In this document: positions 1 through 20,192 of the stretch, one piece after another
Layout of the letters: each line of letters starts with the position of its first letter
How positions within the stretch are numbered: the stretch's first letter is position 1
NCBI GenBank assembly: GCA_946486375.1
Contig: CAMLTW010000002.1
Coordinates: 248,001-312,000 of the forward strand
DNA: 64,000 bases
Direction of reading: 5' to 3'
DNA from: an uncultured Rikenellaceae bacterium
GTDB lineage: Bacteria; Bacteroidota; Bacteroidia; Bacteroidales; Rikenellaceae
The notes under the pieces: generated by a model
The model's database searches: none
Told to the model about the DNA's origin: nothing
What the model saw: the letters and a program-made list of their open reading frames with translations, nothing else
Translations under genes and position numbers: made by a program

Positions 1-152
1 TACGGATTGCCGACGAACAGATGAAGAATATGTTGTATACGGGGGCATTCCCGCTTGATCAGCCGATCGGTGAAGTGTTCTCTCTGTTGAATTACGAAAA
101 TAAATTCGTCATCAAGATCGAAGGACGAAATTTTGTTCTGGATAAAAAATAA
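1..152 (+). CDS. FecR-family anti-sigma factor, C-terminal end (partial)
   Basis: The reading frame enters from the left edge and ends at TAA 150-152, giving about 49 residues. The fragment has the pattern of the C-terminal DUF4974 domain of Bacteroidetes FecR proteins: a hydrophobic segment F-x-L-D-Q-P-I-G-E-V-F-S-L-L, then a short beta segment around FVIKIEG ending in FVLDKK. FecR proteins sit in the inner membrane and hold an ECF sigma factor until a TonB-linked receptor signals. The next gene is a SusC receptor with the STN domain that contacts FecR, so this is very probably the cognate regulator of the locus. The sigma factor gene should lie to the left of the window. Confidence 0.75.
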   Translation, partial: RIADEQMKNMLYTGAFPLDQPIGEVFSLLNYENKFVIKIEGRNFVLDKK

Positions 153-362: not shown

Positions 363-3300
363 ATGAAAAAAATTTTATATTCTATTCTTTGTCTTCTATT
401 TTCAGGGAGTTTTTGCCTGGTTGGCAATTTGCAAGCCCAGAATGGCTCCCCGAAGAAAAGATTCAGCATCTCGGTTTCAAATACTCCGTTTTACGAAGCG
501 ATCTCCCAGATCGAGCAGCAATCGGGCTATCTTTTCCTCTATAAGAGTGAGGATGTGGATCCTGACCGGAGCATCACGCTCCACTTTCAGGAAGCCCCTC
601 TTTCCGATGTCATGAGGGTCCTGCTACAGGGCACTGGGCTGGAGTGGACGCTTTCCGGACGGCACATTACGCTGGCCAAAGCTCCTCCTGCTCCCCAGGT
701 CTATCCGGTGACGGTTTCCGGGAGCATTACAGATGCGGCGGGTGAACCGGTCGTTGGAGTGAGTGTCGTGATCAAGGGGCGCTATATCGGGGTGACCTCC
801 GGTACGGATGGGAAATTCTCCATCTCTGCCCGTTCTAACGACGTCCTCGAATTCAATAGCATGGGTTATGTGGCCCAGTCGCTGCCGGTGCAGGGACGGA
901 CCACAATCAATGTCCGCATGGAAGACGACACCCAGTTTTTGGAAGAGGTTGTGGTAATCGGATACGGCACGGCGACGAAAGCCAGCCTGACCGGTGCAGT
1001 ATCGGTCATTAAATCGGAAGAACTCACGACAGCACCGTTGGCCAGTACGACCAATGCCCTGGCCGGACGCCTGCCCGGTCTGATTACCAAGCAAACCAGC
1101 GGTCTTCCCGGTTCGGACGGGGCTACGCTGAGTATCCGCGGCTTCGATGCACCGTTAGTGATCGTCGACGGGGTCGAAGGTTCGTTCAACAACATCGATG
1201 CGAATGAGATCGAAAGCATCTCCATTCTGAAAGACGCTTCGGCGGCGGTATATGGTGCCCGGGCCGGTAACGGGGTAATCCTGGTGACCACCAAACGGGG
1301 AACCATCGGCAAACCGACCATCACGCTCAACAGTACGCTGACCTTCCAGAGGCCGACCAACCTGATGCGGATGGCCAGTGCCGGACAATATGCTGAAATG
1401 GTTCGCGAATCACACATCCAGGCCGGGCAGCCGGAAAACACTTCGCGCTTCTCGCTGGGCGACATCGAAAAGTATTACGCCGGTACGGATCCGGACTATC
1501 CGAGCACGGATTGGTTCGACTTCCTGATCCGCGACTGGGCGCCGCAGAGCCAGCACAACGTGTCGTTGCGCGGGGGTAGCGATGCGATCCGGTATTACGG
1601 TTTCGTCGGTTTCCTCGACCAGCAATCCATGATTAAGAGAGGCGGGGGGTATTACCGGCGTTACAATATTCGCTCGAATATCGATGCCCGCATTCTGCCG
1701 AACCTTAACATGTCCGTCGATTTTTCCGTCATCATGGATCAACGGCGCTTCCCCTGGCGGAGCGACGAGGGGAACAATTCGGTCTGGCAGGACATCTGGA
1801 ATACCGAACCGATCTACCCGGCGGAATTACCGGATCCGACCAAAGTGCCGTATGCCAATGGCGGGGGAACTGGAGGAGCCCACATCACCAGCAACCGCAA
1901 CCTGAGCGGGACGCGGGATTCGGATAACCAGACCTCCCGGATACAGGGTTCGTTGCGCTGGGACATTACCCAGATCCCCGGACTCTCGGCCAAATACGTC
2001 TTTACCCTGGAAAAATGGTATACGGATTACAAGTATTTCCAACACCTTCCGGATACCTATACCTACAATTTTGCCTCCGATACCTACACCAAGTTGGCCA
2101 AAGGTCTGGATACCAAACTGGATCAGAGCGCTTCCAGAGGACAGAACTGGCAGTCGCTGCTTTCGTTGGATTACCAGACCACCCTTGCGGAGTCTCACAA
2201 CATCACGGCTCAGCTGTTGTACGAGTTGTATGACCAGGGTAACAGTTGGATCAGTGCGGGGCGTTCCGATTTCGACACCAATATGATTCCTTACCTGTTT
2301 GCCGGAGGCTTGGCCAACCAGATTGCCAACGGCAGTGCGGCGGAAATGGGACGGGCCAGTCTGATCGGTCGTTTGAATTACAACTACAAGCAGAAATACC
2401 TGCTGGAAGGAACTTTCCGTTACGACGGTTCGGCCAAGTTCGCAAAGGGACACCGCTGGGGATTCTTCCCGAGCGTGTCGGCCGCCTGGCGTATTGCCGA
2501 GGAACCTTTCCTGAAGGATAATGTCTCGTTCGTCGACAACCTGAAACTGCGCGCCGGTTTCAGCCAGACAGGGAACGATGCGGTGGCGAACTTCAATTAT
2601 CTGGCCGGTTACAGCTTTGGGAACATCTACAACATCGGCGGGTCGGCCAAACCGGGCCTCCATCCGACCGGAATCGCCAATCCGTTTCTTTCCTGGGAAG
2701 AAATGACCATCTACAACGCGGGGATCGACTTCGGACTTTTCCGGAATCGTTTCTTCGGGGAAATCGATGCCTTCTACCGCCTGCGGGAGGGAATCCCCGG
2801 AAACCGCTCGACTTCGCTGCCGGATACGTTCGGGGCTTCGTTGCCAGTGGAAAACCTCAATGCGATCTCTACCCGGGGCTTCGAAGTGATGCTGGGCTAC
2901 CAGGGACAGATTCGGGATTTCCGTTACCGGATCAACGGGAACATTTCCTGGGCACGTTCGAAATGGGACAAGTACGACGAACCGGATTACGAAGATCCGG
3001 ATGACATCCGGATCAATAAACGAACCGGGAAATGGACCGATATTAATTACGGTTACAAATCGAACGGCCTCTTCACTTCGATGGAGCAGATCGAAGAGTT
3101 GCCTTATTACTACATGAATGGCACGCCTAACTCGTCGTTCCTTCACGAAGGGGACGTGATCCTGCTGAACACGAACGACGACAACGTGCTGGACTGGCGC
3201 GACCAGCAGGAAATCGGCAAAGGCAGTATGCCCAACTGGACGGGAGGTCTCAATATCGACTTTTACTACAAAGGCTTCGACTTCTCGATGCTTTGGCAGG

Positions 3301-3695
3301 GGGCGTTCGGATTTTCCCATCAGGTAGTCCTCAAACGGGGAATTGTTTTCCCGGAAGTGATATACAACGAACGCTGGACTTACGAGAACAACAACCCGAA
3401 TGCAATCGTTCCCCGCCTAGGTGGAGCTTCGACCAACGACTGGGGGTCAGATTACCATATGATAGCCGGAGATTATCTCCGCCTGAAATCCCTCTCGCTG
3501 GGGTATACCCTTCCCGGGAAGTGGTTGCAATGGGCCAATATCGGCCAGATACGGGCTTATGTGGCCGCAACCAATCTGGTTACATTCAGTAAGTTGAATA
3601 AATACAATATAGACCCGGAAGCCAATTCAGGGGCAGGAGGTTTTTACTACCCGCAGATGCGCACGATTACTTTCGGTCTGAATATTTCACTTTAA
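363..3695 (+). CDS. SusC/RagA-family TonB-dependent receptor with STN signalling domain
   Basis: Outer-membrane TonB-dependent transporter that imports oligosaccharides together with a SusD partner. I start it at ATG 363, which begins a clean signal peptide (MKKILYSILCLLFSG..., cleavage near AQA-Q); the longer frame needs a GTG at 336. From this start there are 1110 residues. An STN domain lies at about 32-105, a carboxypeptidase-regulatory-like beta domain at 115-190, a plug at about 195-320 (EEVVVIGYGT, then LSIRGFD and VILVTTKRG), and the barrel follows. SusC proteins with STN usually signal to a FecR/ECF-sigma pair, and a FecR end lies just upstream. susD follows after 11 bp. The substrate cannot be read from the receptor itself. 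Confidence 0.95.
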   Translation: MKKILYSILCLLFSGSFCLVGNLQAQNGSPKKRFSISVSNTPFYEAISQIEQQSGYLFLYKSEDVDPDRSITLHFQEAPLSDVMRVLLQGTGLEWTLSGRHITLAKAPPAPQVYPVTVSGSITDAAGEPVVGVSVVIKGRYIGVTSGTDGKFSISARSNDVLEFNSMGYVAQSLPVQGRTTINVRMEDDTQFLEEVVVIGYGTATKASLTGAVSVIKSEELTTAPLASTTNALAGRLPGLITKQTSGLPGSDGATLSIRGFDAPLVIVDGVEGSFNNIDANEIESISILKDASAAVYGARAGNGVILVTTKRGTIGKPTITLNSTLTFQRPTNLMRMASAGQYAEMVRESHIQAGQPENTSRFSLGDIEKYYAGTDPDYPSTDWFDFLIRDWAPQSQHNVSLRGGSDAIRYYGFVGFLDQQSMIKRGGGYYRRYNIRSNIDARILPNLNMSVDFSVIMDQRRFPWRSDEGNNSVWQDIWNTEPIYPAELPDPTKVPYANGGGTGGAHITSNRNLSGTRDSDNQTSRIQGSLRWDITQIPGLSAKYVFTLEKWYTDYKYFQHLPDTYTYNFASDTYTKLAKGLDTKLDQSASRGQNWQSLLSLDYQTTLAESHNITAQLLYELYDQGNSWISAGRSDFDTNMIPYLFAGGLANQIANGSAAEMGRASLIGRLNYNYKQKYLLEGTFRYDGSAKFAKGHRWGFFPSVSAAWRIAEEPFLKDNVSFVDNLKLRAGFSQTGNDAVANFNYLAGYSFGNIYNIGGSAKPGLHPTGIANPFLSWEEMTIYNAGIDFGLFRNRFFGEIDAFYRLREGIPGNRSTSLPDTFGASLPVENLNAISTRGFEVMLGYQGQIRDFRYRINGNISWARSKWDKYDEPDYEDPDDIRINKRTGKWTDINYGYKSNGLFTSMEQIEELPYYYMNGTPNSSFLHEGDVILLNTNDDNVLDWRDQQEIGKGSMPNWTGGLNIDFYYKGFDFSMLWQGAFGFSHQVVLKRGIVFPEVIYNERWTYENNNPNAIVPRLGGASTNDWGSDYHMIAGDYLRLKSLSLGYTLPGKWLQWANIGQIRAYVAATNLVTFSKLNKYNIDPEANSGAGGFYYPQMRTITFGLNISL

Positions 3696-3706
3696 TTCGA
3701 AGACCT

Positions 3707-5488
3707 ATGAAAAAGAGTATATTGATCTTAGCCGCCATTCTTTTCGGGACGACATCGTGTCTCGACATCCTGGATAAGCAACCCCTCGATATGATCTCCG
3801 ACGAAGTGGTTTGGAAAGATCCCGTATTGATGGACAAGTACCTGCTCGAATGTTACGCGGAGATGGGTTTCTTCAACGAGATGCAGTTGGGTGGAAACCA
3901 GGACGACGTGGGAGGCAACACCCCCTTTACCATGACCGGTATTTCGGACGAGGCTCATGCGGCCTGGGTACCGACTCCCAAGACACACTGGATCTCACCC
4001 TCCTCGGAGGTCGCTTCGTGGTGGGGTTACCCTGTGGTGCGGAAGCTGAACATTTTCCTGGACAAAATGGAAAATTCGCCGATCGAAGAGTCTGTCCGCA
4101 TCCAGCGGACAGCCGAGGCGCGTTTCCTGCGGGCGTTCTGCTACTTCCAAATGGTGAAGCGCTACGGCGGGGTTCCGCTGATTACCACGGAATTGGGTTT
4201 AGAGGATTCGGACGAACTGCTTTATCCGTTCCGGGAAAAGGAGGAGACGATCTACCAGTTTGTGCTGGATGAGCTGAACAGCATCATCGATAACAAACAC
4301 CTCCCTGAGAGCTATGGCGGCGGCGACTTGGGGCGTCCGACGATCTGGGCGGCGGCCGCGCTGAAAAGCCGTGCGGCCATGTACGCCGGGAGTATCGCCA
4401 GTTGGGGGAAAGTCCAGCTGGACGGTGTGGTGGGTATTTCGCCTGCCCGCAAAGCCTACTTTTGGCAGCAATCGCTCGACGCTTCGAATTTCATCCTGGA
4501 AAAAGGGCCGTTCGAACTCTATTACAAGTATTTCCACGAAGATATTGTGAAGAACTACCGCCAGATTTTCCTGGATGAAAACAACAGCGAAGTGATCTTC
4601 TCCGAAGTCTTCGACGGCAAAGCCGGCAAGGGGCACTCTTATGACCACTGGATGAACCCTCCGGGTTACAACGCCTGGAACGAAGGACAAGCCTATGTGG
4701 TGTACCTGGAATTTGTCGAGTCTTACCAGAACCTGCAGGGAGAGGCGGATCCCATCGACCGCCAGAAGATTGCCAACCACCACCAGTGGACGATGGAAGA
4801 ACTGTTCGGGAACAAGGATCCCCGTTTCCATGCTTCGATCTACACCCACGGCACGAAATGGAGCCACAACGGGGCGGAAGTCGTGCTGGACTACCACCAG
4901 GGTGTATACTGGCAAGGCCAGTGGTATGAGAGCGGGGTCGCCCCCAACGGGATGCCTGCCCAGGGGTTGAGTCAGACCAAATGGCGCCCTTCATCGTTCG
5001 GGATTCTGAAATACCTCGACGAAGATAATGCGATGGTTCCGGAGCGTTTTTATTCCCAGACTGACTGGATCGTCTTCCGCCTGGGTGAGATCTACCTGAA
5101 TAAGGCAGAGGCCGCCCTCGAACTGGGCGACGAGCCGTCGGCACGGGTAGCCCTGAACGAGATCCGGAAGCGGGCCGGTATGCCGGAATTTACCCGCGCC
5201 ATTACTCATGAGGACATTCGCCAGGAGCGGAAGATCGAACTGGCCTTCGAGGGCAATCGCTACTGGGACCTGCGCCGCTGGCGAATCGCGGAAGATGCGC
5301 TGACCAACGCTTGGTCCGGCCTGCGTTACAAAATGGACGGGGCATCAGGAAAACTTTACCTGGAGATTTTGCCGGATATTGCCGGAATGCCGGTTCCGTT
5401 CTTCAACGAGATGCATTACTACCTGCCGATTGCCCAATGGCGGATCGGACAGAATCCCAATCTGATTCAAAACCCCCTCTACCGTTAA
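3707..5488 (+). CDS. SusD/RagB-family outer-membrane glycan-binding lipoprotein
   Basis: 593 residues. The N-terminus is a lipoprotein signal with a Cys after GTTS (residue 18), followed by the SusD-like LDKQPLDMISDEVVW segment. TPR-like helices come in the middle (EARFLRAFCYFQMVKRYGGVPL), and the C-terminal RagB domain has the typical IRQERKIELAFEGNRYWDLR block, ending in NPLYR. SusD proteins sit as a lid on the SusC barrel and bind the polysaccharide at the cell surface. It lies 11 bp after susC and 74 bp before the first lipoprotein enzyme, so it is co-transcribed. Confidence 0.95.
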   Translation: MKKSILILAAILFGTTSCLDILDKQPLDMISDEVVWKDPVLMDKYLLECYAEMGFFNEMQLGGNQDDVGGNTPFTMTGISDEAHAAWVPTPKTHWISPSSEVASWWGYPVVRKLNIFLDKMENSPIEESVRIQRTAEARFLRAFCYFQMVKRYGGVPLITTELGLEDSDELLYPFREKEETIYQFVLDELNSIIDNKHLPESYGGGDLGRPTIWAAAALKSRAAMYAGSIASWGKVQLDGVVGISPARKAYFWQQSLDASNFILEKGPFELYYKYFHEDIVKNYRQIFLDENNSEVIFSEVFDGKAGKGHSYDHWMNPPGYNAWNEGQAYVVYLEFVESYQNLQGEADPIDRQKIANHHQWTMEELFGNKDPRFHASIYTHGTKWSHNGAEVVLDYHQGVYWQGQWYESGVAPNGMPAQGLSQTKWRPSSFGILKYLDEDNAMVPERFYSQTDWIVFRLGEIYLNKAEAALELGDEPSARVALNEIRKRAGMPEFTRAITHEDIRQERKIELAFEGNRYWDLRRWRIAEDALTNAWSGLRYKMDGASGKLYLEILPDIAGMPVPFFNEMHYYLPIAQWRIGQNPNLIQNPLYR

Positions 5489-5562
5489 TTCATCCGATAA
5501 CCGGGAGATTCCAGCCCCCATCCCACCTAAGGGGCCGGAATATTTCTCAAAAACGAACCACG

Positions 5563-6798
5563 ATGAGAGAAAAAATGAAAAAAGGATTGTTGTGTGCCTG
5601 GATCTTCCTGTTGCCGTTTCAACTGTCGGCCTGTTCCAAGGACAGCGGTGGCGGTAAGGATAAGGGAGAGGAAGAACCGCCCGTCGAGATCCCGAAAGGC
5701 GATGTGACCGTGGCAGTCTATTATTTCCCGAACTGGGGGCCTGCGGCCGGTTCGGAATGGGGCACTCTACAGCGCGCGAAGCCCATGTTCGAGGGGCACC
5801 AACAGCCTAAGGTTCCGGCTTGGGGGTATCAGAACGAAAATCGACCGGAAGTCATGGCACAGAAGATCGATGCCGCTGCCGACCACGGGGTCGATGTCTT
5901 CATCTTCGACTGGTATTTCTACGACCATGCCGAGATGCCGGGAAACAAATATCTGTACATGGCCCTGGAAGACGCTTTCCTACAGGCGTCGAACAACGAC
6001 CGGCTGAAATTCTCCATCATGTGGTGCAACCACGACCTGGGAGATATTGCCAAAGGCGCGGTAGAGCCGGAGACTTTTGAACGGCTGACCGATTACGTTA
6101 TCGAACGCTATTTCAAACACCCGTCTTATTGGTTGGTCGACGGTTGTCCCTATTTTTCGATCTACGAGGTCAATACATTCCTGAAGACCTTCGGCGGCGA
6201 CTGGACGGCAGCCGGAGCGGCCATCGAGCGTTTCCGGGAGAAAGTGAAGGCCGCCGGATTCCCGGATCTGCACCTGAACGGGGTACTCTACGGCATGGGA
6301 GGCATTATCGATCCGTCGGTCGAGGCGTTGAAGATTCAATCGACGACGACTTACGTCTGGATTCACCACAATCCTCTGTCCGATTTCCCGAAGACGAAAT
6401 ACGACAAGGCCGCCGGACAATATTTCAAGACCGTCCAATCCGGAGGAGGAGCGAACGGACTGGAGAATTCGGCCAACTACCTGCCTGTTCCTTATCACAT
6501 CAACGTCAGCATGGGGTGGGATTCCTCGCCGCGTTGCGGGGGCGTCGATCGGGCGGAGTGGCTCTCCCGGAGGGATTACCCGTTCGGAGCGGTCATCGTG
6601 GACAACACGCCCTACCTGTTTAAGAAATACCTGGCCGAAGCCAAAAAGCTGACGATGGCCAAACCGGAAAACGAACGGATCATTGTTGTCAACTCCTGGA
6701 ACGAATGGGGCGAAGGCAGTTACCTGGAGCCGGATAATGTCAACGGAATGGGGTACCTGGAAGCAATCCGGGAGGTATACGGCCCCGCAGCACATTAA
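5563..6798 (+). CDS. WbsX/GH99-like glycan-processing lipoprotein (copy 1)
   Basis: The start is ATG 5563, giving MREKMKKGLLCAWIFLLPF and a lipobox LSAC; the longer frame from 5311 only reads back into susD. The mature protein has the PF14307 (WbsX) layout: VAVYYFPNWG, then EGHQQPKVPAWGYQNE, GVDVFIFDWYFYD, and a C-terminal NSWNEWGEGSYLEPD. This is a TIM-barrel fold related to GH99, with conserved acidic residues in the WNEW-EG-LEPD motif. In PULs such proteins are surface or periplasmic lipoproteins thought to act on glycan side chains; the activity is mostly inferred. It is clearly paralogous to the next gene, which starts 18 bp later. Confidence 0.85.
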   Translation: MREKMKKGLLCAWIFLLPFQLSACSKDSGGGKDKGEEEPPVEIPKGDVTVAVYYFPNWGPAAGSEWGTLQRAKPMFEGHQQPKVPAWGYQNENRPEVMAQKIDAAADHGVDVFIFDWYFYDHAEMPGNKYLYMALEDAFLQASNNDRLKFSIMWCNHDLGDIAKGAVEPETFERLTDYVIERYFKHPSYWLVDGCPYFSIYEVNTFLKTFGGDWTAAGAAIERFREKVKAAGFPDLHLNGVLYGMGGIIDPSVEALKIQSTTTYVWIHHNPLSDFPKTKYDKAAGQYFKTVQSGGGANGLENSANYLPVPYHINVSMGWDSSPRCGGVDRAEWLSRRDYPFGAVIVDNTPYLFKKYLAEAKKLTMAKPENERIIVVNSWNEWGEGSYLEPDNVNGMGYLEAIREVYGPAAH

Positions 6799-6816
6799 TC
6801 GATTAAAACGAAACCG

Positions 6817-8031
6817 ATGAAAGCGATAAACCATATTTTGGTCTTCATGACCTTGCCTTTCCTGTTTTCCGCTTGCCGGGAGCAAGCGGTCCCGGCAGCC
6901 GATGAAATTACGGTGGCCTGTTATTATTTTCCAAACTATCATACCGGCGACCCTCGTGTAGAAGCACACAAGGGCAAAGGCTGGATGGAATGGGAACTGG
7001 TCAAAGAGGCGCGTCCGCGCTTCGAAGGGCACCAGCAGCCGAAAGTGCCCGCCTGGGGGTACGAAGATGAGGCCGATCCGAAAGCCATGGCGAAAAAGAT
7101 CGATGCGGCGGCCAATCATGGGATTGACGTATTTCTTTTCGACTGGTATCATTTTAATGATGGGCCATACCTCAATCGGGGGTTGGACGAAGGCTTTCTG
7201 AAAGCCCGTAACACGAAGCAACTGAAATTCGCCCTGATGTGGGCCAATCACGATTGGGTGGAACTCCATCCGGCCACCCGCGGAATTCCCCAGGAACTGC
7301 TTTATCGGGGAACGGTAACCCCGGAAGTCTATGACGAAATCTGCGACCACGTTATCCGGGATTATTTCACCCAACCCAATTACTGGCTGATCGACGGGAA
7401 GGCCTACTTCTCGATCTACGACATCCAGAAGTTCGTCGAGAGTTTCGGTTCGCTGGAAGCGACCCGTGCGGCCATGAACCGGATGCGGGAAAAAGCAGTC
7501 CGAGCAGGTCTCAAAGGCGTACACTGGAATGTGGTGGCTTGGGGGAACCCGATCCTGCCGGTAGAGGTGCCGCCGGACAATTACGCCGAACTGATCGAAA
7601 AGCTCGGTTTCGATTCGGCGACCTCTTACGTCTGGATCCACCACAGCTGGCCGGCCGAAGAGAAGACCGACTACAACAAAACGCGGGACGAATACCTCGC
7701 TTTCTGGGACGAGGCCAAAGCCGAATATCCGGTTCCCTATTATCCGAACATCACGATGGGATGGGATTCCAGCCCGCGGACGAACCAGAACGAGGACTGG
7801 AAACCGGAGTACGGCTATCCGTATTCGGGCGTATTGTACAACAATACCCCGGAGAATTTCAAACGGGGGATGGAAGTGATCAAACAGAAACTGCTTGCCG
7901 ACCCCGATGGGCCGCGGATCGTGAATATCAACTGCTGGAACGAGTGGACGGAGGGGAGTTATCTGGAACCCGACGAGATTCACGGCATGCAGTACCTCGA
8001 AGCGGTGAAAGAAGTATTCGGTAACCATTGA
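6817..8031 (+). CDS. WbsX/GH99-like glycan-processing lipoprotein (copy 2)
   Basis: 404 residues starting MKAINHILVFMTLPFLFSAC, a lipoprotein signal. It repeats the landmarks of the preceding gene in the same order: ITVACYYFPNYH, EGHQQPKVPAWGYEDE, GIDVFLFDWYHF, NYWLIDGKAYFSIYD, TSYVWIHHSWP, NITMGWDSSPR and NCWNEWTEGSYLEPD. The two therefore arose by duplication but have diverged well outside these blocks, which suggests different linkages or subsites rather than a recent redundant copy. It ends with TGA 14 bp before the next gene. Function is inferred from family and context. Confidence 0.85.
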   Translation: MKAINHILVFMTLPFLFSACREQAVPAADEITVACYYFPNYHTGDPRVEAHKGKGWMEWELVKEARPRFEGHQQPKVPAWGYEDEADPKAMAKKIDAAANHGIDVFLFDWYHFNDGPYLNRGLDEGFLKARNTKQLKFALMWANHDWVELHPATRGIPQELLYRGTVTPEVYDEICDHVIRDYFTQPNYWLIDGKAYFSIYDIQKFVESFGSLEATRAAMNRMREKAVRAGLKGVHWNVVAWGNPILPVEVPPDNYAELIEKLGFDSATSYVWIHHSWPAEEKTDYNKTRDEYLAFWDEAKAEYPVPYYPNITMGWDSSPRTNQNEDWKPEYGYPYSGVLYNNTPENFKRGMEVIKQKLLADPDGPRIVNINCWNEWTEGSYLEPDEIHGMQYLEAVKEVFGNH

Positions 8032-8044
8032 CAGGAAGGAGACG

Positions 8045-10222
8045 ATGAAAAATATCCTCATAAAAGGGATGCTCGTTTTGTCTGGCTTGTGCGGCTATAT
8101 GGCACAGGCCCAGCAAAGCCCGACACTGGAAGAGCGTTTCAAAAACCCACCGATGGAGTATCGGATGAACCTGAACACACACGATGTTCCGCACGACCCG
8201 GCGCAACAGAAAGAATTGCTGGACCGTTACCAGGCCGCGGGCTACGGCGGATTGGCGACCAATGTCAACTGGACGGACGACTACATGCAAAATGCCGGGG
8301 AACTCGAAACTTTCTATCGTTTTGTGCGGTCGGCTAACGAACGGGGGATGAATGTCTGGCTGTACGATGAGAAAATATATCCTTCAGGGATGGCCGGAAC
8401 GATGATTCTCGACGCACACCCGGATTGGGAGGCCGAAGGATTGTTCTTCCGCGATACGGTGATCCGGGGACCGGCGGCGGTTTCGCTGCCCCGCTTGCGG
8501 GGTGAACCGGTACGGACAGCAGCGGTGCCGGTCGAAGGGGAAAATCCCCGCATCGACCGAGCCGTCGATCTGGCTGGAGCCGTGGGAAGTGAAAACGTGG
8601 CCTGGAAGGTACCGGCAGGGGAATGGCATATCGTGCAGGTTACCCGGGATGCCCTCTATGAGGGGTTTCAAGCCGGTAACAGTCGGCTGGGGGTTGCTCC
8701 CCGCTATCCGAGCCTGCTGATGCCGGAGGTGACGGAGATGTTTATCGATGTCACGCATCAAAAGTATGCCGAATTTGCCGGTGAAAAATTGGGCAATCTC
8801 TTCACGGCCACTTTTACGGACGAGCCCTCTTTGATGGCCATGTCGTATACCGACCAGGGATTCGGGGTCTACCCGTGGAAACAAAATGTATCGGAGGAGT
8901 TCCGAAAACGTTCGGGATGTGTATTGGAAGAGGTCCTGCTCTCCCTGCTGTTGGACGAAGGTTCGGCAGGACAGCGGCTTCGGTACATCTATTTTGAGAT
9001 CGTTTCCGATTTCATGAGTCGCCATTTCTTTCGTTCGGTTCAGGAGTTCTGCCACACGCAGGACTTGCTGTCCGGCGGCCATTTGCTGGTCGAAGAAACC
9101 CTGATGGCGCAGGTGCCGCTGTACGGCAACATTATGGCCTGTTTCCGAAAGATGGATGTGCCGGGGATCGATGTACTGACCGGTATGCCTTCGTTTACCC
9201 GCCGTTACCTCTATTCCTCCCGTTTGGCTTCCTCGGCAGCGGAACTGGAAGGCAACCGGTACGTGATGACGGAGATCTGCCCGATCGCCGACCCGATGTT
9301 CCACGACGGACGGGAAGCACCGACCGCAGATGTCCGAGGGACGATCAACCGGCAAATGGTCGGCGGCGTGAATCGCTTTAACAACTACTTGCAGCTTCAT
9401 CACGAAGACGCCGCCGGGAGGGAACGATTCAATACCTATGTCGGACGAGTAACTTCCTTTCTGACAGGCGGTGTCCGAGCCGGAAAGATTGCGGTCTATT
9501 ATCCCATCGAAACGATGTGGACGAAATTCCGTCCGCTCCCCATGGGGCTGATTAACTGGGATCAGTTGGCTGGCGGCGCTCCGCAGGCCCAGGCGTTGGA
9601 TGGCTTGTTCGACCGGGTCAGCGACGCGTTAATGGAAAGCCAGTGGGAATTTTCCTATGTCGATGCGCAAGCCCTGGAGCAAGCCAGCGTGGAGGATGGA
9701 GCATTGAAGAACGGCGAATTGTCTTGGCAGGTATTGATTCTCCCTGGAGTGGAAACCCTTTCCGAGGCCGTTGCCCGTCAAATCGATCGGTTTATCGCTT
9801 CGGGCGGAACGGTGATCGCGCTGGAAGGTCTGCCGGTCAACTCCACAACAGCTTTCCCCTCGAAGCCGATTCAGGAGTGGGTTGAGCAGACCGGAAGAAC
9901 GGGCCGGATGGGAAAGAATGTGTTCTACTGGCCGGAGTGGAGTGCGGAAAAACTGAACCGACAACTGGAGGGTACTGTAAACCGTGCATTGCGGTTAGAC
10001 GATTCGCAAAACGTGCTGATCGCTCACCGGAAAATCGATGGAGAGAATCGCTATTTTATCACCAACGACAGCGATTCACCCCGGACCTTCACTCTCACTT
10101 TTACCGGGACGGGAGAAGCAGAACAATGGGAACCGCAAACCGGAGAGATCCGTACGGTCGGAAAAACGGTTCGTTTTCAACTGGAAGAATACGGCGGGAT
10201 GCTGTTTCGGCAGAAAGAATAA
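8045..10222 (+). CDS. Secreted GH106-related glycoside hydrolase (short form)
   Basis: 725 residues with a Sec signal peptide (MKNILIKGMLVLSGLCGYMA, cleavage near AQA-QQ) and no lipobox. The N-terminal half looks like the barrel of GH106 alpha-L-rhamnosidase-type enzymes: YGGLATNVNW, NVWLYDEKIYPSGMAG, and an acidic FTDEPS segment. The second half has an IAVYYP...W..F block and a Rossmann-like LPGVETLSEAVARQIDRF...GGTVIALEG segment, as in the gene that follows. It lacks the C-terminal beta-sandwich of the neighbour and is about 340 residues shorter. I place it in a GH106-like clan, not in a defined EC class. It sits in the PUL operon with gaps of 13 and 21 bp. Confidence 0.7.
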   Translation: MKNILIKGMLVLSGLCGYMAQAQQSPTLEERFKNPPMEYRMNLNTHDVPHDPAQQKELLDRYQAAGYGGLATNVNWTDDYMQNAGELETFYRFVRSANERGMNVWLYDEKIYPSGMAGTMILDAHPDWEAEGLFFRDTVIRGPAAVSLPRLRGEPVRTAAVPVEGENPRIDRAVDLAGAVGSENVAWKVPAGEWHIVQVTRDALYEGFQAGNSRLGVAPRYPSLLMPEVTEMFIDVTHQKYAEFAGEKLGNLFTATFTDEPSLMAMSYTDQGFGVYPWKQNVSEEFRKRSGCVLEEVLLSLLLDEGSAGQRLRYIYFEIVSDFMSRHFFRSVQEFCHTQDLLSGGHLLVEETLMAQVPLYGNIMACFRKMDVPGIDVLTGMPSFTRRYLYSSRLASSAAELEGNRYVMTEICPIADPMFHDGREAPTADVRGTINRQMVGGVNRFNNYLQLHHEDAAGRERFNTYVGRVTSFLTGGVRAGKIAVYYPIETMWTKFRPLPMGLINWDQLAGGAPQAQALDGLFDRVSDALMESQWEFSYVDAQALEQASVEDGALKNGELSWQVLILPGVETLSEAVARQIDRFIASGGTVIALEGLPVNSTTAFPSKPIQEWVEQTGRTGRMGKNVFYWPEWSAEKLNRQLEGTVNRALRLDDSQNVLIAHRKIDGENRYFITNDSDSPRTFTLTFTGTGEAEQWEPQTGEIRTVGKTVRFQLEEYGGMLFRQKE

Positions 10223-10243
10223 AGGATTGAAAACTCAGAATAT

Positions 10244-13200
10244 ATGAAAAAAAGAGTGTGGATTGCCCTGGCCGTTTTATGCGGTCTCTGGGGCTGGAGC
10301 GGTTGCGGCGAAGGAAATGATGCGGGAGATCGGTGGGAGCGGGCTTTCCTCGATCCGCCCGAGTCAACCAAGCCGTGGGTGTACTGGTATTGGATCAGCG
10401 ACAATATCTCCAAAGAAGGAATCACGCGTGATCTCGAAGCGATGGCCGAGGTCGGTATCGGCGAAGCGTTGATCGGTAACGTGGTGGATCCGGCGGTTCC
10501 GGTAGGCCGGGTGTCGCTGTTCAGTGAAGAGTGGTGGAGTTGTGTGGAGCATGCGATCTACGAAGCGGAGCGTTTGGGAATCAAGGTCGGGATGTTCAAT
10601 TGTCCGGGGTGGAGCCAGTCCGGCGGCCCCTGGGTTCAGCCGGAGCAGGCCATGCGCTACCTGGTTTCCAATGAATTCCGTTTGAGCGGGCCGCAGCGCC
10701 TGTCCCGGAAGTTGGAGGCTCCGGAGGCTGATTTCCAGGTGGTTGCCGTTCAGGCATTTCCTGCTCCAGCGGAAGACGATGACCGGATCGCCCGGAAATC
10801 GCCTCGGGTGAATGCCTCGGGGATCCGCAATCCACAGGCGCTTTTCGACGGTAATCTGTCGACAACGGCCGATTTTACGGAGTATCCGGCCCGGGTTGAG
10901 ATTCGACTGGATCATCCGGTGACCGTCCGGTCGCTGGAGCTTCATCCCGCCGATGCGCCGATGAGTGCCGATTGCAAACTGGAAGCCCTGGGGGCCGACG
11001 GAAGATGGCAGCCGGTTTCCCGATTCAAAATAGACCGGGAGAAACTTGACGTGGCGATCGGGCCAATACGCTTTGGAGCGGTTTGCCACAGTTTTGAAGC
11101 GATCACCGCCCGGGAATTCCGCCTGACTTTTACCAATGGGGCGGGCGGACGGCTCCGTTCCATTGAATTGAGTGGAGCGGCACGCTTGAGTTCCTATGTG
11201 GAAAAACAGTTGGGCAAAATGAGCCCGGTTCCCGAGATCTATGCCGATACTTACCGTTGGCCGGAATCGGCAGAGCCCGAAAGCAAAAGCCTGGTGGTCG
11301 ATCCGGGGCAGGTTATCGACCTGACAGCGCAGCTCGATGCCGATGCCAGGTTGGTCTGGGAGGTTCCGGAAGGAGAATGGGTGGTGGTTTACACCGGCAT
11401 GGCTCCAACCGGTACCATGAACGCACCGACCACTCCGGAAGGGCGTGGCCTGGAAGTCGATAAAATGAACCGGGAGTTGGCTCAATTTCATTTCGACTCC
11501 TTTATCGGCGAATTGTTGAAACGGATCCCGCCGGAAAAACGGACCGGATTTCGCCACGTCGTGGCCGACAGTTACGAGCAAGGGTCGCAAAACTGGACGG
11601 AAGGTTTTGCCGAAGAGTTTATGCGGGTGTATGGCTACGATCCTTACCCTTGGCTGCCGGTGCTGACCGGTCGGGTTGTGGAGAATGCGGATCGTTCCGA
11701 CCGTTTCCTGTGGGATATGCGTCGGTTGGTGGCCGACCGCATCGCCTCGGGGTATGTCGGCGGATTACGCGAACGGTGTGAAGAGAACGGGTTGCGCCTC
11801 TGGTTGGAGAATTACGGCCACTGGGGATTCCCCGGCGAATTCCTTAATTACGGCGGAGCCAGCCACGACTTGGGTGGGGAATTCTGGCTCTCGGCACCGT
11901 CGCTCGGACCTGTCGAGGTACGGTGTGCCTCTTCGGCCGGACATACCTACGGAAAAAATGTTGTTTCGGCTGAAGCCTTCACTTCTCATTGGAACTTTAC
12001 CCAGATGCCGCGCGACCTGAAGATCCGCGGCGATTGGTCCTGGTGCGAAGGAATCAACCACTTTGTGCTACACGTTTACATCCACCAGCCGGACGAACGA
12101 AAACCGGGCATGAGTGCCTGGTTTGGAACCGACTTTAACCGGCACAGCACCTGGTTCTCCTCTTCGAAAAGCTATTTCGATTACATCCGGCGTTCGTGTG
12201 CGCTGCTGCAGAGCGGCCGTCCGGTGGCGGACATCGCTTACTTCATCGGCGAAGATGCGCCGAAAATGACCGGTGACATGGAACCGACCTTGCCGGCGGG
12301 ATACGACTATGACTTCATCAACTCCGAAGTGCTGATGCAGGATGCCCGGGTGGTCGATGGGAGAATCGAACTCTCTTCGGGAGCCTCTTACGCCGTTCTG
12401 GTTCTTCCGCCGCAGGAGACGATCCGCCCGGAAATGCTGGAAAAAATCGCGAAACTGGTCGAAGCCGGAGCGGCGGTTTACGGCCCCCGTCCCGAGCGTT
12501 CCCCGAGCGGAAAGAATTACCCGAAGAGTGATGAGCGGGTGCGGGTGCTGGCGGATAAAATGTGGGGCGGCATCGACGGACGGCATACCACCAGCAACGC
12601 CTACGGGGCAGGTCGGGTCTTCTACGGCGGTGGTCTGAAGGAAGCACTGGTGCAATTGGGCGTTCATAGCGATTGCCTCCTGCCCGAAGGCTTCCTGTAT
12701 ACCCACAGGCAGGAAGAGGGGAGTCACCTATACTTTATCAGTAATCAGCAGGAGCGGGAACGGAATGAAACCGTAGCCTTACGAGTAACCGGCATGCGTC
12801 CCGAACTGTGGAATCCGGTGACGGGTGAGATCCGGGAGTTGTCGGATTATTCTGAAGCCGACGGCAAGATCTATATCCCGTTGCAATTTGGCGCAGGGGA
12901 TTCCATGTTCATTATTTTCCGAAAAAGCGGCAAGCCTTCTTCTTCGGGAATGAATTTCCCGATTTTCGAAACACGACAACTGGTGGATGGGACGTGGTCG
13001 GTCGATTTTTCCCCGGTATACGGTGACCGTTTTCGGAAGAGCTTCCCGGTATTGACGGATTGGACCGCTCAAGAAGATCCGGAGGTGAAATATTACAGCG
13101 GTACAGCAACGTATACCCTCTCTTTTACCAGCCATGCTGCTTCGCCCGACGGGGGCGTCTTCCTGGATCTTGGCCAGGTCGAGGGGATGGCAAAAGTTCG

Positions 13201-13450
13201 CCTGAATGGGGTCGAGTATCCGGTCTTGTGGCGTTATCCCTACCGGGTCGATGTATCCGATGAACTGAACCGGGGAGAGAATAAGTTGGAAGTCGAGATT
13301 ACGAATTGCTGGTGGAACCGCCTGGTAGGCGATCGGCAGCCGAGGGCGGAGCCGGTTACCTGGTCCGCTTATATCGGTTGGAACGAAGAAAGCGCCTTGC
13401 TTCCAGCCGGGTTGTTGGGGCCTGTCATGCTTCTCGAAGAAAAGAAGTGA
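10244..13450 (+). CDS. GH106-family (alpha-L-rhamnosidase-like) lipoprotein
   Basis: 1068 residues; the N-terminus carries a lipobox (GWSGC). The GH106 opening follows at about residue 25: FLDPPESTKPWVYWYWISDN, then ISKEGITRDLEAMAEVGIGE. A discoidin-like beta segment (LFDGNLSTTADF...VEIRLDHPVTVRSLELHP) lies at about 200-235. The barrel carries EAFTSHWNFTQMPRDLK and GINHFVLHVYIHQP. A C-terminal galactose-binding-like sandwich is at about 900-1068 (YSGTATYTLSF...FLDLGQVEGMAKVRLNGVE). GH106 members release alpha-L-rhamnose from complex glycans such as pectin rhamnogalacturonan. It is the last gene of the PUL operon; its natural terminator has been split by the mobile element immediately downstream. 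Confidence 0.85.
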   Translation: MKKRVWIALAVLCGLWGWSGCGEGNDAGDRWERAFLDPPESTKPWVYWYWISDNISKEGITRDLEAMAEVGIGEALIGNVVDPAVPVGRVSLFSEEWWSCVEHAIYEAERLGIKVGMFNCPGWSQSGGPWVQPEQAMRYLVSNEFRLSGPQRLSRKLEAPEADFQVVAVQAFPAPAEDDDRIARKSPRVNASGIRNPQALFDGNLSTTADFTEYPARVEIRLDHPVTVRSLELHPADAPMSADCKLEALGADGRWQPVSRFKIDREKLDVAIGPIRFGAVCHSFEAITAREFRLTFTNGAGGRLRSIELSGAARLSSYVEKQLGKMSPVPEIYADTYRWPESAEPESKSLVVDPGQVIDLTAQLDADARLVWEVPEGEWVVVYTGMAPTGTMNAPTTPEGRGLEVDKMNRELAQFHFDSFIGELLKRIPPEKRTGFRHVVADSYEQGSQNWTEGFAEEFMRVYGYDPYPWLPVLTGRVVENADRSDRFLWDMRRLVADRIASGYVGGLRERCEENGLRLWLENYGHWGFPGEFLNYGGASHDLGGEFWLSAPSLGPVEVRCASSAGHTYGKNVVSAEAFTSHWNFTQMPRDLKIRGDWSWCEGINHFVLHVYIHQPDERKPGMSAWFGTDFNRHSTWFSSSKSYFDYIRRSCALLQSGRPVADIAYFIGEDAPKMTGDMEPTLPAGYDYDFINSEVLMQDARVVDGRIELSSGASYAVLVLPPQETIRPEMLEKIAKLVEAGAAVYGPRPERSPSGKNYPKSDERVRVLADKMWGGIDGRHTTSNAYGAGRVFYGGGLKEALVQLGVHSDCLLPEGFLYTHRQEEGSHLYFISNQQERERNETVALRVTGMRPELWNPVTGEIRELSDYSEADGKIYIPLQFGAGDSMFIIFRKSGKPSSSGMNFPIFETRQLVDGTWSVDFSPVYGDRFRKSFPVLTDWTAQEDPEVKYYSGTATYTLSFTSHAASPDGGVFLDLGQVEGMAKVRLNGVEYPVLWRYPYRVDVSDELNRGENKLEVEITNCWWNRLVGDRQPRAEPVTWSAYIGWNEESALLPAGLLGPVMLLEEKK

Positions 13451-13490: not shown

Positions 13491-13504
13491 TTATCCTTGA
13501 AATG

Positions 13505-13542
13505 GTGCAACAAGTTGATAGATGACTTGTTGCACTTTTTTT
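13505..13542 (+). terminator. Strong element-borne terminator just inside attL
   Basis: GTGCAACAAG (13505-13514) pairs perfectly with CTTGTTGCAC (13526-13535) and is followed by seven Ts. The T-tract is on the + strand, so it stops rightward transcription entering from the PUL, not the leftward operon of the element. It appears to replace the host terminator the insertion destroyed. Confidence 0.85.
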
Positions 13543-13664: not shown

Positions 13665-14711
13665 TTATATTTCTTCTTTAAAAAATAGCTGATAGTAATA
13701 CATCCCTGTATTTTCATCATAACCACGCTTAATATACTGATTATTTCCATGCACGTAAATGTGGAAATTTTTATCTAGTTTAATAACACTTTTAAAGTTG
13801 CGAGATTGCTTTTTTACTGCAGAAGAAGAAATTGAAAATTCTTCAGCAACCTTGATTTCATGATCCTCTTCGTATGATTGCTTATAGGCTTTGAAACTAT
13901 CTATGACTTCTGGTTGGGCAATTACTTCATGAGTAAACTCGTCTAAATTAAATGATTCGTTTTGTTTGAAGTATTGAGCTGATTTATTTAACAATTCGGC
14001 TTGATCTGCTTTAGTAATATCAAACTCATTGGGCAGCCGCTTAACCATATAGTTTTTACATATATCTATCAAATTACGTGTATTGTAATACTCATCTTGG
14101 CATTGTTCTATATGCAAAAAATCATCAATCCAATATTTCGCATCTTGCCCTCTATTTGTATTATCAACTACAGAAAGGACATATCCATGATCTTTATTTA
14201 CATTATAAATTAAACATCCTTTATCTAATTTATTAATATTTATTCCTATTTTGCTTTTTACATTAAACTCATTACCATCTGGTTGTATCTCTAAAAAAGT
14301 ATTTTTATTTTCAGATTTGAAGATTCCTATTGCATCGGTAATTACGTTATCAACTTCACAATTACTAAAATATGCTACGTAGAATTCTCCTGATTTTATG
14401 TTGGGATGTAGAGACAATTCATATAAATAATTTGCCAAATGAACGGACTGTACATGCAGATTTTGAGGATTCTCGAATATTTTTGACACATAAGTATACA
14501 CTTCATTCAGCTCAATAGCCGAATTATGTATAAATCTATACGATTCATCCTGTTTGAAAGATGACAAAAAGTATTTTAAAAGTACTGAAGAAATATCTTC
14601 TGAAAGTATTGTTAATGATTTTGAAAGGAAAATACTGTCATCATTTGTTTTATTACCAACCCAATGAATCGCTAACGATTCAAGATTTATATCGTAGTTA
14701 TTAATAACCAT
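13665..14711 (-). CDS. NA37/YejK-type nucleoid-associated protein (third gene of AT-rich operon)
   Basis: 348 residues. It has the PF04245 (37-kDa nucleoid-associated protein) landmarks common in Bacteroidetes: LHPNIKSGEFYVAYF at about 101-115, DAIGIFKSENK at 126-136, KLDKGCLIYN, VVDNTNRGQDAKYWIDDFL at 181-199, NTRNLIDICKNY, a LLNKSAQYFK helix, and SRNFKSVIKLDKNFHIYVHG at 303-322. Family members bind nucleic acid; the E. coli relative is a nucleoid component of poorly known role. Its ATG lies one base beyond the TGA of the upstream gene, so translation is probably coupled. The AT-rich codon use differs sharply from the host. In this element it is unlikely to be the housekeeping copy; a role in a three-protein system is inferred. 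Confidence 0.8.
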   Translation of the reverse strand: MVINNYDINLESLAIHWVGNKTNDDSIFLSKSLTILSEDISSVLLKYFLSSFKQDESYRFIHNSAIELNEVYTYVSKIFENPQNLHVQSVHLANYLYELSLHPNIKSGEFYVAYFSNCEVDNVITDAIGIFKSENKNTFLEIQPDGNEFNVKSKIGININKLDKGCLIYNVNKDHGYVLSVVDNTNRGQDAKYWIDDFLHIEQCQDEYYNTRNLIDICKNYMVKRLPNEFDITKADQAELLNKSAQYFKQNESFNLDEFTHEVIAQPEVIDSFKAYKQSYEEDHEIKVAEEFSISSSAVKKQSRNFKSVIKLDKNFHIYVHGNNQYIKRGYDENTGMYYYQLFFKEEI

Positions 14712-14712
14712 A

Positions 14713-16140
14713 TCAGTTTGAAATTTTATTCCACATGCAAGGAAACGTCCAAGTTACATATATTATGAACCCGTACAAAATTATCAATAATATATAAATA
14801 TAACTTGTTACCCACAAACGGGAGATCAATGAGTTTTTTACATGTTCATCTAACTCTTTTTTGGGAATAGTTTCACTAATACATTTTCTCCAATATTTGA
14901 GTTCTTTACTTGCTAACCATAAATCTGATATATCTGTAATCAACTGCATTACTACAGAAGCGATAAAGTATATTGCAAGCCCTTTGAAAATTACATTAAT
15001 CAAATTATATTTTTCTAAAATTTTAATCTCAGTAAATTTTGTAAATAACGTAAATCCGACTAATAAAATTCCTGCAAGGACATCGCGAGTAAAGTTATTA
15101 AGAAGAGATCTTATCTTGGATGAGTATAAGTCTGATTGGACTTTTAAATCTTTAAGAAGGGAAGCTAATTCTTTTGCATAAGAATCCCTGCGCTCCAACA
15201 TGACAAAACTATATCTTTCTTTTGCTTGATCGAAAGCGTTATTTGCCACCAGAAGCAATTCATTTAGTAGAGGCTGCTCGTAATCTATATCCAAAGTTAC
15301 TCTGTCTAAGAATAACTTACGTCGAATATCAATTTTAGCATGATCTGTATCTTGATAAATCCATTCGACAATTTCTTTCAGTAATAATAAAAAATTTAGA
15401 TCAACCTTTGTCTTGTCATTATATAAAGGCAATTTTATTCTTCTGATACCTTGAAGAACAATGAAATCTTTATGTAATTCATTGGCAAACGTACTACATA
15501 AAGTTGCACAAGAATAAATTAAAGATATATTGCAATAATCTGTTTTAGACCTACTCTTTTTAGAGATGATAGAAGTGATTAAATACTTACAGCAATTAAA
15601 AGATAGTTCTTGTCCATTAGGGATTACCACATGTTCAGCAACAAGAGAATCGTTGGGCAAAAAATTCCCTTGGGTATCAAATGTATCATTAATATCTCCT
15701 GTTATTAATAGATTAGGGCCTCCGCAAGTGGTATTTAAACCATTTACGATAATTTTAATTTTCGAATATGGCAATTGAGTAAATGGTGATATATTTTTAA
15801 GCCATGCTTTAAAATTCGTTATTCCATAAAAAAACTGCACTTCATAATCATCAATAATTTTAAGATTCAGTTTATTAATGTTTACGACAAACTGGTTATC
15901 AGCATAATCGTCAATCTCATCAACAGAAATTGATTCTGTATTAACTCTGACCTGAGGAGTGATAAGATGATTATATTTTTTTATTTCATTATCCAGAGTT
16001 CGCACATCGACAAGTAATTTTGGATAATAATTAACCTTAATGGTTAAATTACCCCAAACCTCCGTGTAACTTCCTCTAGAAATTATTTTCTGCAGTTGGT
16101 TAAATATAACTTGCAACATATTAGATTGGGATGTCTTCAA
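14713..16140 (-). CDS. Unrecognised protein with C-terminal membrane segments (second gene of AT-rich operon)
   Basis: 475 residues that I cannot assign to a family. Residues 1-300 look soluble and mixed alpha/beta, with many Asn, Ile and Lys, a GLNTTCGGPNLLITG stretch at 134-148 and several scattered cysteines (139, 183, 184, 203, 211, 215). About 300-350 is a charged helix likely to be a coiled coil. Three hydrophobic segments follow at about 352-370, 381-402 and 442-466, so the protein is anchored in the inner membrane by its C-terminus. It overlaps the upstream gene by 20 bp and abuts the downstream one, so the three proteins are produced together. A membrane-anchored effector or sensor is one inference; no catalytic motif is visible. 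Confidence 0.75.
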   Translation of the reverse strand: MKTSQSNMLQVIFNQLQKIISRGSYTEVWGNLTIKVNYYPKLLVDVRTLDNEIKKYNHLITPQVRVNTESISVDEIDDYADNQFVVNINKLNLKIIDDYEVQFFYGITNFKAWLKNISPFTQLPYSKIKIIVNGLNTTCGGPNLLITGDINDTFDTQGNFLPNDSLVAEHVVIPNGQELSFNCCKYLITSIISKKSRSKTDYCNISLIYSCATLCSTFANELHKDFIVLQGIRRIKLPLYNDKTKVDLNFLLLLKEIVEWIYQDTDHAKIDIRRKLFLDRVTLDIDYEQPLLNELLLVANNAFDQAKERYSFVMLERRDSYAKELASLLKDLKVQSDLYSSKIRSLLNNFTRDVLAGILLVGFTLFTKFTEIKILEKYNLINVIFKGLAIYFIASVVMQLITDISDLWLASKELKYWRKCISETIPKKELDEHVKNSLISRLWVTSYIYILLIILYGFIIYVTWTFPCMWNKISN

Positions 16141-17167
16141 AACTATTAGTTTTAATCACGATATGGTACATACCGTCGCCTTGAGGCTCTTTAGGTAGAG
16201 TAAGGTTAACCTGTTCTAGTTCGCCTGTCCATGTTAATGTTATACCTTCCGCTGTAATAGCTGTATGTTTTAACGTATGACGATTCAATGCTTTTTGGCT
16301 TATTCTAAATTCTTGCCCATAAACACCATCTTCCTGCAGGAATTCTTTAAAAGAATCTATCGCACGGGTTTTTCGTTCGATATTTTCATCAAATAAAATC
16401 GTATCGATAAACTCATCTGAATTAAATATAGAATGACCAGTAAGATAATTAATTGCTCGTTGTTTGTAATGGGCAGATGTGTCTGTATCATTCAATAAAT
16501 CTTTATGTTGATTTGCCCATTTTGTTGCAGCACTTAATGCTCTTCTTGTCAAGGAGAAAATATCATCTTTTTCTGCAACGGCTAGAAAGTTTTGGAAATA
16601 CTTTTTAATAGAATCTCCGGCATTCCTATCGAATGCTAATGCTTCCCAGGCATATTTATCAGATAAAGATATCAATGCCATTTTTTGGATGGCCTTCGTG
16701 TCTTCAACAAATGTATCCTTTATTTTTTTCAACGAGGCTCTATCGCGATTTATCTTATATTGGTATACTAACCGATTATCAATTTTTAGTAAAAAAATAA
16801 ATGATGCTATGTTTCGAATCTTTACCAACGAGACAACAAATACTCCATCGGCCGTATTGCCTTTATGGTGTTCTCTAAATGAGGCCGTAATTTTTTTTGA
16901 TAATTTCAAGAATTGAGAATTATCCTGAATAATAGAGTGGCAATAATTGTAAGTCGAAGAATTTGCTTTATCAGGAAAGATATATTGTATGCCTTGCGCG
17001 ACATCTATTAATCTTTTTTTAAAAAACTCTTTTTGTTCAGGGTTAAGACTAACCTCATGCTTCAGATAGGCTGGTTTGTGCTCTTGCTCAATAATTATGT
17101 GAAAAATAAATTTTAGGATTTCGATAGACGCTTTATCGGCTTCAGTTAAGACGCTTTCTCGTTTCAT
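16121..17167 (-). CDS. Divergent NA37-like protein (first gene of AT-rich operon)
   Basis: 348 residues. No strong family label, but the layout follows the YejK/NA37 fold. A strand pair DGVFVVSLVKIRNIASFIFLL lies at about 108-127 and KKIKDTFVEDTKAIQKMALI at 147-166. DRNAGDSIKKYFQNFL at 180-195 resembles the R-x-G-x3-x2-F-x2-FL block of YejK. Helices follow at 200-245, and a C-terminal strand region GITLTWTGELEQVNL lies at 308-322. It is the same length as the operon's third protein but shares no obvious sequence with it, so they may form a heteromeric pair. The next gene starts 20 bp before this one ends. An alternative is an unrelated alpha/beta protein; the match should be tested by profile search. 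Confidence 0.65.
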   Translation of the reverse strand: MKRESVLTEADKASIEILKFIFHIIIEQEHKPAYLKHEVSLNPEQKEFFKKRLIDVAQGIQYIFPDKANSSTYNYCHSIIQDNSQFLKLSKKITASFREHHKGNTADGVFVVSLVKIRNIASFIFLLKIDNRLVYQYKINRDRASLKKIKDTFVEDTKAIQKMALISLSDKYAWEALAFDRNAGDSIKKYFQNFLAVAEKDDIFSLTRRALSAATKWANQHKDLLNDTDTSAHYKQRAINYLTGHSIFNSDEFIDTILFDENIERKTRAIDSFKEFLQEDGVYGQEFRISQKALNRHTLKHTAITAEGITLTWTGELEQVNLTLPKEPQGDGMYHIVIKTNSFEDIPI

Positions 17168-19953: not shown

Positions 19954-20190
19954 ATGGAAACATTGGCCGCTCAGGCGCGGCAGTTGGAACGGCGGTACGA
20001 ACCGGAAACGGACGGGAATTGAATCGACTCGCAGGAGGTGTGCCTTGCGTTGGGCATTACCAAACGGACGCTGCAAAGCTACCGTGAAAAAGGGATTATC
20101 CCTTATTCCAGTGTGGGTGGCAAGTATTTCTACAAAGAAAGCGACGTGGCAGCCTATCTGCAATCGAAAACCAAACGAAGGGAGGCGTAG
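19954..20190 (+). pseudogene. MerR/excisionase-type HTH gene broken by an in-frame TGA
   Basis: One frame runs from ATG 19954 to TAG 20188-20190 (78 codons), interrupted by TGA at 20020-20022. Before the stop it reads METLAAQARQLERRYEPETD; after it comes a complete helix-turn-helix domain: IDSQEVCLALGITKRTLQSY, then REKGIIPYSSVGGKYFY. Relatives have Trp at the interrupted position (W-[IM]-D-S-Q-E-V), so a single TGG-to-TGA change explains it. The product would be a small DNA-binding regulator or excision factor. The next gene starts 2 bp after the end, showing the normal two-gene layout. Readthrough, restart or sequence error cannot be excluded. Confidence 0.75.
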
Positions 20191-20192
20191 CT

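Follow-up and report, generated by a model that had tools for sequence, protein, structure and literature searches.

A PUL combining two WbsX proteins with two GH106-type proteins in an uncultured Rikenellaceae bacterium

What sugar chain does a PUL handle when it sets two WbsX proteins beside two GH106-type proteins, and what would each of these proteins do there? Such a locus lies at the left end of the 64,000 nucleotides analysed here (the window, i.e. positions 248,001 to 312,000 of contig CAMLTW010000002.1, our contig C2, in the 3.13 Mb genome of a gut-type bacterium). Judged from its genes and their sequences, the locus most likely handles a rhamnose-bearing sugar chain.

Layout of the locus and its flanks

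The first-pass annotation had placed six genes of one operon at 363-13450. This set is borne out: the open reading frames are open and the family matches are far beyond chance. On the + strand lie, in this order, a SusC/RagA TonB-dependent transporter with an STN domain (363..3695, frame open from 336; STN 3.2e-12, SusC/RagA 1.7e-255), a SusD-type lipoprotein (3707..5488; SusD_RagB 2.3e-50), WbsX1 (about 5563..6798; PF14307 3.2e-38) and WbsX2 (6817..8031; PF14307 8.4e-49), a short GH106-type protein of 725 aa (8045..10222; PF17132 2.8e-17) and a long GH106 alpha-L-rhamnosidase of the BT_0986 type, of 1068 aa (10244..13450; PF17132 2.9e-203; PDB 6q2f and 5mqm). The open frame of WbsX1 runs from 5311 and overlaps SusD. 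By eye, WbsX1 and WbsX2 each have a lipobox and the short GH106 a signal peptide; lipid anchoring is viewed against the lipoprotein/LES background. We propose the two WbsX lipoproteins, which are GH99-like, as candidate endo-glycosidases and the short GH106 as a putative periplasmic alpha-L-rhamnosidase.

From SusC to the long GH106 the intergenic gaps are 11, about 74, 18, 13 and 21 bp, and a terminator-like hairpin with a T run, the probable operon end, follows at 13504..13536 (+); two terminator-like sites occur in 500 bp, against 0.4 expected from shuffles. The short gaps, the single direction and the hairpin fit one operon, as had been claimed. The adjacent SusC/SusD pair with co-directional carbohydrate-active enzymes makes the locus a PUL.

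It also appears to have regulators of its own. The 3' end of a FecR-type anti-sigma gene occupies 1..152 (+) of the window; this gene begins left of the window at L003:19115 (Pfam FecR 3.2e-15 on that part) and is preceded by an ECF sigma gene with sigma-70 regions 2 and 4 (L003:18501-19040). By their sequence and position these two genes complete the locus. An ECF sigma factor, a FecR protein and a SusC with STN are the usual set for trans-envelope self-regulation. As in other ECF-sigma/FecR PULs of Bacteroidota, the ECF sigma, FecR, SusC with STN and SusD genes are followed by lipoprotein enzymes in one direction, whereas the enzyme set WbsX1-WbsX2-short GH106-long GH106 is that of the present locus. 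The locus is thus a PUL of ordinary plan and known kind, and its enzyme module was not found in print (in a mostly open-access literature).

The first-pass annotation had allowed that genes left of the window might supply a different specificity. To the left come the ECF sigma and FecR genes, then a 926-aa helicase with a DUF2726-type end and a HEPN/nucleotidyltransferase protein (L003:14320-18051), so that no other specificity is supplied. The helicase matches the PADLOC MkoC/MkoA models at about 1e-50 and is possibly defence-related. A second SusC/SusD pair (L003:310-5395) lies farther left, at a distance of about 13 kb from the ECF sigma gene; its SusC is 27% identical to the PUL's own. To the right of the PUL a mobile element extends over 13665-23387, with a relaxase at 17505-18716 and a tyrosine recombinase at 22002-23387. 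Its low-GC cargo comprises three genes, two with NA37 domains and, between them, one of 475 aa that matches no Pfam family; PADLOC gave no match for any of the three. The GC is 0.55 in the PUL versus about 0.29-0.37 at 13.5-17.5 kb. As a test of the PUL as cargo of the mobile element, 23380-24945 was compared with the leftward DNA for direct repeats of at least 13 bp, and none was found. No carbohydrate-degrading enzyme was recognised in the helicase/HEPN left flank or in the mobile-element right flank.

The WbsX proteins and the GH99 family

Both WbsX proteins belong to PF14307 (132.5 bits for WbsX1 and 167.3 for WbsX2; cut-off 25.1). The first-pass annotation spoke of a duplicated WbsX: two copies are indeed present, but not by simple duplication, the pair being old and about 45% identical. 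In a tree of 30 of the 31 rows (the truncated WbsX of genome G077 was left out), WbsX1 and WbsX2 each group with their own counterpart in genome G056 (100/100 and 96/96 support) rather than with their sibling, and a recent duplication is thereby rejected.

The relation to GH99 appears in the profiles. Profile comparison of WbsX with GH99, the latter represented by four sequences of the family, yields a probability of 98.3% (E 2.4e-14, 324 columns), with NEWTE of WbsX aligned on NEWHE of GH99. EWxE is the GH99 catalytic motif according to the accessible part of PMC11025385; it is found in 30 of the 31 WbsX homologues, both window copies included, and the remaining one is truncated. WbsX1 reads EWGE and WbsX2 reads EWTE (E376, E379), i.e. 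both glutamates of the GH99 catalytic pair, EW[H/G]E, are kept. In an alignment of 26 of the 31 homologues every member matches PF14307; at E 0.01 or better, 15 of them have a GH99 match as well and 9 a GH71 match. WbsX resembles the GH99 endo-alpha-mannosidases/mannanases in fold and in profile, with the EWxE pair aligned; it differs from them in that the Pfam GH99 cut-off of 33 bits is not reached (22.2 for WbsX1, no match for WbsX2) and that the string H[I/L]EPY, another GH99 motif in the accessible part of PMC11025385, is absent from WbsX1 and WbsX2. On these two grounds we call the proteins GH99-like, not members of GH99.

The predicted model of WbsX2 is poor (pLDDT 53.8). Among the chains aligned to it, the best structural match is 5ngw (OpGH99A), at Z 10.7, which also has E 4.3e-5; many GH99 chains follow at Z 7.8-9.3, and since an unrelated GH5 reaches Z 8.0 we count the fold as modest support. 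Foldseek on the same model ranks a chitinase first and GH99 second.

The first-pass annotation had found no endo-acting enzyme beside the operon. This is now doubtful, because WbsX aligns with GH99 and keeps EWxE, and because the accessible parts of PMC11025385, PMC13421300 and PMC13063451 describe an endo mode for those GH99, GH71 and GH195 enzymes whose activity is reported. From their sequences, the two WbsX proteins look like chain-cutting enzymes, not glycosyltransferases. A point against is a related 71/99-like PUL protein, given in the available text of PMC13421300 as inactive on yeast cells and without a settled substrate. The GH195 endo-alpha-1,3-mannanase of PMC13063451 is, by its description there, a GH99-related endo-enzyme of a Bacteroidota mannan PUL and in this like WbsX; in contrast to the present locus, its substrate is described there as sulfated and its PUL carries sulfatases. 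No paper joining WbsX with a PUL or with a glycoside hydrolase was found in the mostly open-access literature searched; by title, the papers naming WbsX deal mostly with filaria antigens or unrelated matters, plus Plesiomonas O-antigen clusters.

PF14307 genes fall into two kinds. Ten genes of the family (L086-L095, in genomes G098, G048, G021, G079, G008, G156, G121, G145, G084 and G134) score 381-455 bits and are without a strongly hydrophobic start, although for two of them the annotated start may lie too far upstream. At each of the four for which neighbours are listed there is at least one polysaccharide-biosynthesis gene: glycosyltransferases at L086 and L090, a flippase-type gene and a UDP-sugar dehydrogenase at L087, a nucleotide-sugar dehydratase at L088. 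The secreted kind scores 118-180 bits and has a hydrophobic start in nearly all members, the listed exceptions being L059, whose neighbours likewise resemble biosynthesis genes, and one window copy taken from a truncated locus. EWxE is kept in both kinds, and the high-scoring genes appear as a cytoplasmic kind of WbsX that has this motif also. In the present locus, sequence and context point to a secreted glycosidase-like protein instead of the glycosyltransferase label of PF14307.

Across the phylum, WbsX2 finds matches at E 1e-30 in 5 of 395 sampled genomes (its own and four at 31-43%), and no WbsX relative was confirmed in viral contigs.

Two GH106 subtypes and the gene that follows

The locus had been described as holding duplicated GH106-like enzymes. 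There are two GH106-type genes (PF17132 62.9 bits for the short and 677.9 for the long, cut-off 29), but they are not duplicates: their active-site residue sets differ, which makes them different tools and not copies. For the comparison, homologues were split by best BLAST score into 24 short and 7 long members, window included (one short row is without N-terminal columns). The long GH106 (6q2f, E 7.6e-151) has D442, S443, E445, E522, E546 and E577 as equivalents of D458, S459, E461, E538, E561 and E593 of BT_0986, whose roles are taken from the accessible part of PMC6828813, and these six catalytic/calcium residues are present in all seven long members. In this it is like BT_0986 and RHA-P (5mqm, 6q2f); unlike them, it has no further RG-II-type enzymes recognised beside it.

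The short GH106 departs from the full BT_0986 set, with E for S459, H for E538 and D for E561, while the base is kept. Its residues are D259-E260, H346, D376 and the base E410; these positions were matched to BT_0986 by eye, the profile alignment confirming the base alone (E410 on E577). Among the 24 short members, window included, D259, H346, D376 and E410 are invariant, and position 260 is E in 22 members and D in the other two. The set is that of the Ram106B, or GH106_dist, subgroup as the available text of PMC6828813 describes it, where DE, H and D replace the BT_0986 residues and the enzymes hydrolyse pNP-alpha-L-rhamnoside and naringin. The likeness is drawn through this published residue description; the same text proposes an intracellular place for Ram106B, whereas the short GH106 is predicted to be secreted and lies near SusC/SusD. 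Foldseek on its predicted model gives 6q2f, 5mwk and 5mqm on top with TM 0.24 or less, a weak support given the pLDDT of 49.8.

Close relatives of the short GH106 occur in 6 of 200 family genomes, own included (51-53% identical, or self), and a seventh locus in a Bacteroidota MAG (L026, 46%); at E 1e-40 it is found in 5 of 395 phylum-sample genomes (own and four at 29%). At all seven loci (the window, L028-L031, L025 and L026) the gene after the short GH106 belongs to a rhamnosidase family: GH106 in the window and in L026, GH78 in the other five. The GH78 gene is full in L028, L029, L030 and L031; in L025, the same DNA as contig C288 of G077, the contig ends in a gene start with a Rha78A N-terminal (GH78-type) domain. 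A WbsX2-type gene precedes the short GH106 in five loci (the window, L028, L029, L031 and L025, where it is interrupted by a stop) and none does so in L030 or L026. Three genomes (G040, G048 and G068) carry a WbsX2-type gene but no close relative of the short GH106, which counts against the model. The seven loci are not independent, since they are mostly from close relatives, five of them from one genus group. GH106 and GH78 are nevertheless unrelated families that both fill this slot, and a substrate that contains rhamnose is the best explanation for their exchange at one place.

Substrate, rival readings and proposed model

The suggestion of a rhamnose-bearing glycan, made from the window alone, is supported by the two GH106-type enzymes, by the GH78 or GH106 neighbour in relatives and by rhaB-rhaA-rhaT in the genome: genes for a rhaB-type kinase, rhaA and rhaT are adjacent, next to an AraC regulator. 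RhaA is found in 81 of 200 family genomes. Of the six that carry the short GH106 five have it, the exception being G077, a genome 69% complete. Elsewhere in the genome analysed there are 8 GH78-domain matches, so that rhaBAT and rhamnose use are not bound to the PUL. In the genes read to its left and right, part of which were family-searched, neither a lyase nor a GH28, GH105, sulfatase or esterase was recognised, and ulvan and rhamnogalacturonan-I are therefore disfavoured as substrates.

Two loci speak against a pure rhamnose reading. In the first, the orthologous locus of G056 (L037), the core has the order of the window, i.e. ECF sigma, FecR, SusC (63.5%), SusD (63.0%), WbsX1 (73.2%) and WbsX2 (69.3%), and ends after WbsX2 with no rhamnosidase beside it. 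The short GH106 of G056 lies elsewhere with a GH78 (L030), and its long GH106 (45.8%) about 12 kb from the PUL, with two GH43 genes close by (L036). The second, L058, is more distant and combines ECF-FecR-SusC-SusD-WbsX with a GH20. From these two loci, SusCD-WbsX appears as a core that meets different exo-enzymes, which fits WbsX as the chain-cutting partner and makes WbsX alone no marker of rhamnose. SusC and SusD are both present in at least 5 of 24 neighbourhoods of secreted WbsX genes (L037, L038, L042, L052 and L058); many secreted WbsX genes stand alone. In L038 (genome G100) one of the WbsX genes near SusC/SusD lies directly 3' of a D-mannonate dehydratase gene (UxuA 2.8e-117), which hints at a uronate-bearing substrate for that other locus. 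Adjoining the long GH106 of G056 is a 602-aa protein (L036:10330-12138) with no Pfam match at 0.001, by eye partly GH71/99-like.

Three other readings deserve weighing. The locus could serve a plant side chain or glycoconjugate, such as an arabinogalactan cap, an RG-II fragment or a rhamnosylated flavonoid or saponin, the GH106 proteins acting on the plant rhamnoside and WbsX trimming the neighbouring sugar, perhaps as an exo-enzyme. BT_0986, the best-studied GH106, acts on RG-II chain B and Ram106B on naringin (accessible part of PMC6828813), and the available text of PMC10807430 interprets PULs that contain GH106 and GH78 as pectin loci; however, the flanking genes read, part of them family-searched, included no recognised pectin lyase, GH28 or GH105, and the GH99-type relatives of known activity act on mannans or glucans (PMC11025385, PMC13421300 and PMC13063451, in their accessible parts). 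We regard a plant substrate as rather unlikely.

It is less probable again that WbsX1 and WbsX2 are non-catalytic glycan-binding lipoproteins, with hydrolysis left to the GH106 pair alone. The idea comes from 5ngw, the best structural match of WbsX2, which reportedly belongs to a paper on a GH99-related protein whose title says 'lacking catalytic machinery'; the EWxE pair of both window copies and of nearly all homologues, aligned on the GH99 catalytic glutamates, argues against it. Lowest in our estimate stands a short GH106-type protein that acts on another sugar adjacent to rhamnose and is no rhamnosidase. Its identity to long GH106 proteins is about 21-23%, and its subgroup has other residues where BT_0986 has the serine, E538 and E561, yet the base is kept in every short member, and according to the accessible part of PMC6828813 the Ram106B enzymes, which share these substitutions, act as rhamnosidases on pNP substrates.

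The reading that we prefer is a self-regulated PUL for a rhamnose-bearing glycan, in which WbsX would cut inside the chain and two GH106 rhamnosidases would act beside it. The sequences show which genes are present and in what order, their homologies, the retained active-site residues, a conserved module and the presence of rhaBAT; regulation, cell location, mode of cleavage and substrate we infer. A signal from the STN domain of SusC would pass through FecR to the ECF sigma factor, and the sigma factor would transcribe the operon. WbsX1 and WbsX2, as lipid-anchored GH99-like endo-glycosidases, would cut through their two EWxE glutamates, probably at a manno-configured residue, and SusC/SusD would import the fragments. 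Both GH106 proteins, the short one of Ram106B type and the long one of BT_0986 type, would act in the periplasm and remove alpha-L-rhamnose in two different linkages or settings, and the L-rhamnose would enter the RhaT/RhaA/RhaB route encoded elsewhere in the genome. Taken as a whole, we give this model an even chance.

A wider proposal is more tentative and in our view improbable. Secreted WbsX proteins may form a glycosidase family of their own, made of retaining EWxE endo-enzymes that would work by a 1,2-anhydro-type route, i.e. via a 1,2-anhydro sugar, on residues of manno configuration (D-mannose, D- or L-rhamnose). Together with paired rhamnosidases they would make up a conserved module (WbsX2 - short GH106 - GH106 or GH78), and its target would be an undescribed microbial polysaccharide that is mannan-like and contains rhamnose.

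The family name of PF14307 makes its proteins glycosyltransferases, yet the secreted branch found here belongs to a degradation locus and has the catalytic pair of a glycosidase intact. If these proteins are endo-glycosidases, many PF14307 genes would be misnamed and would encode a chain-cutting activity open to assay. The module WbsX2 - short GH106 - rhamnosidase is a small testable enzyme set, and it narrows the likely substrate to rhamnose-bearing glycans.
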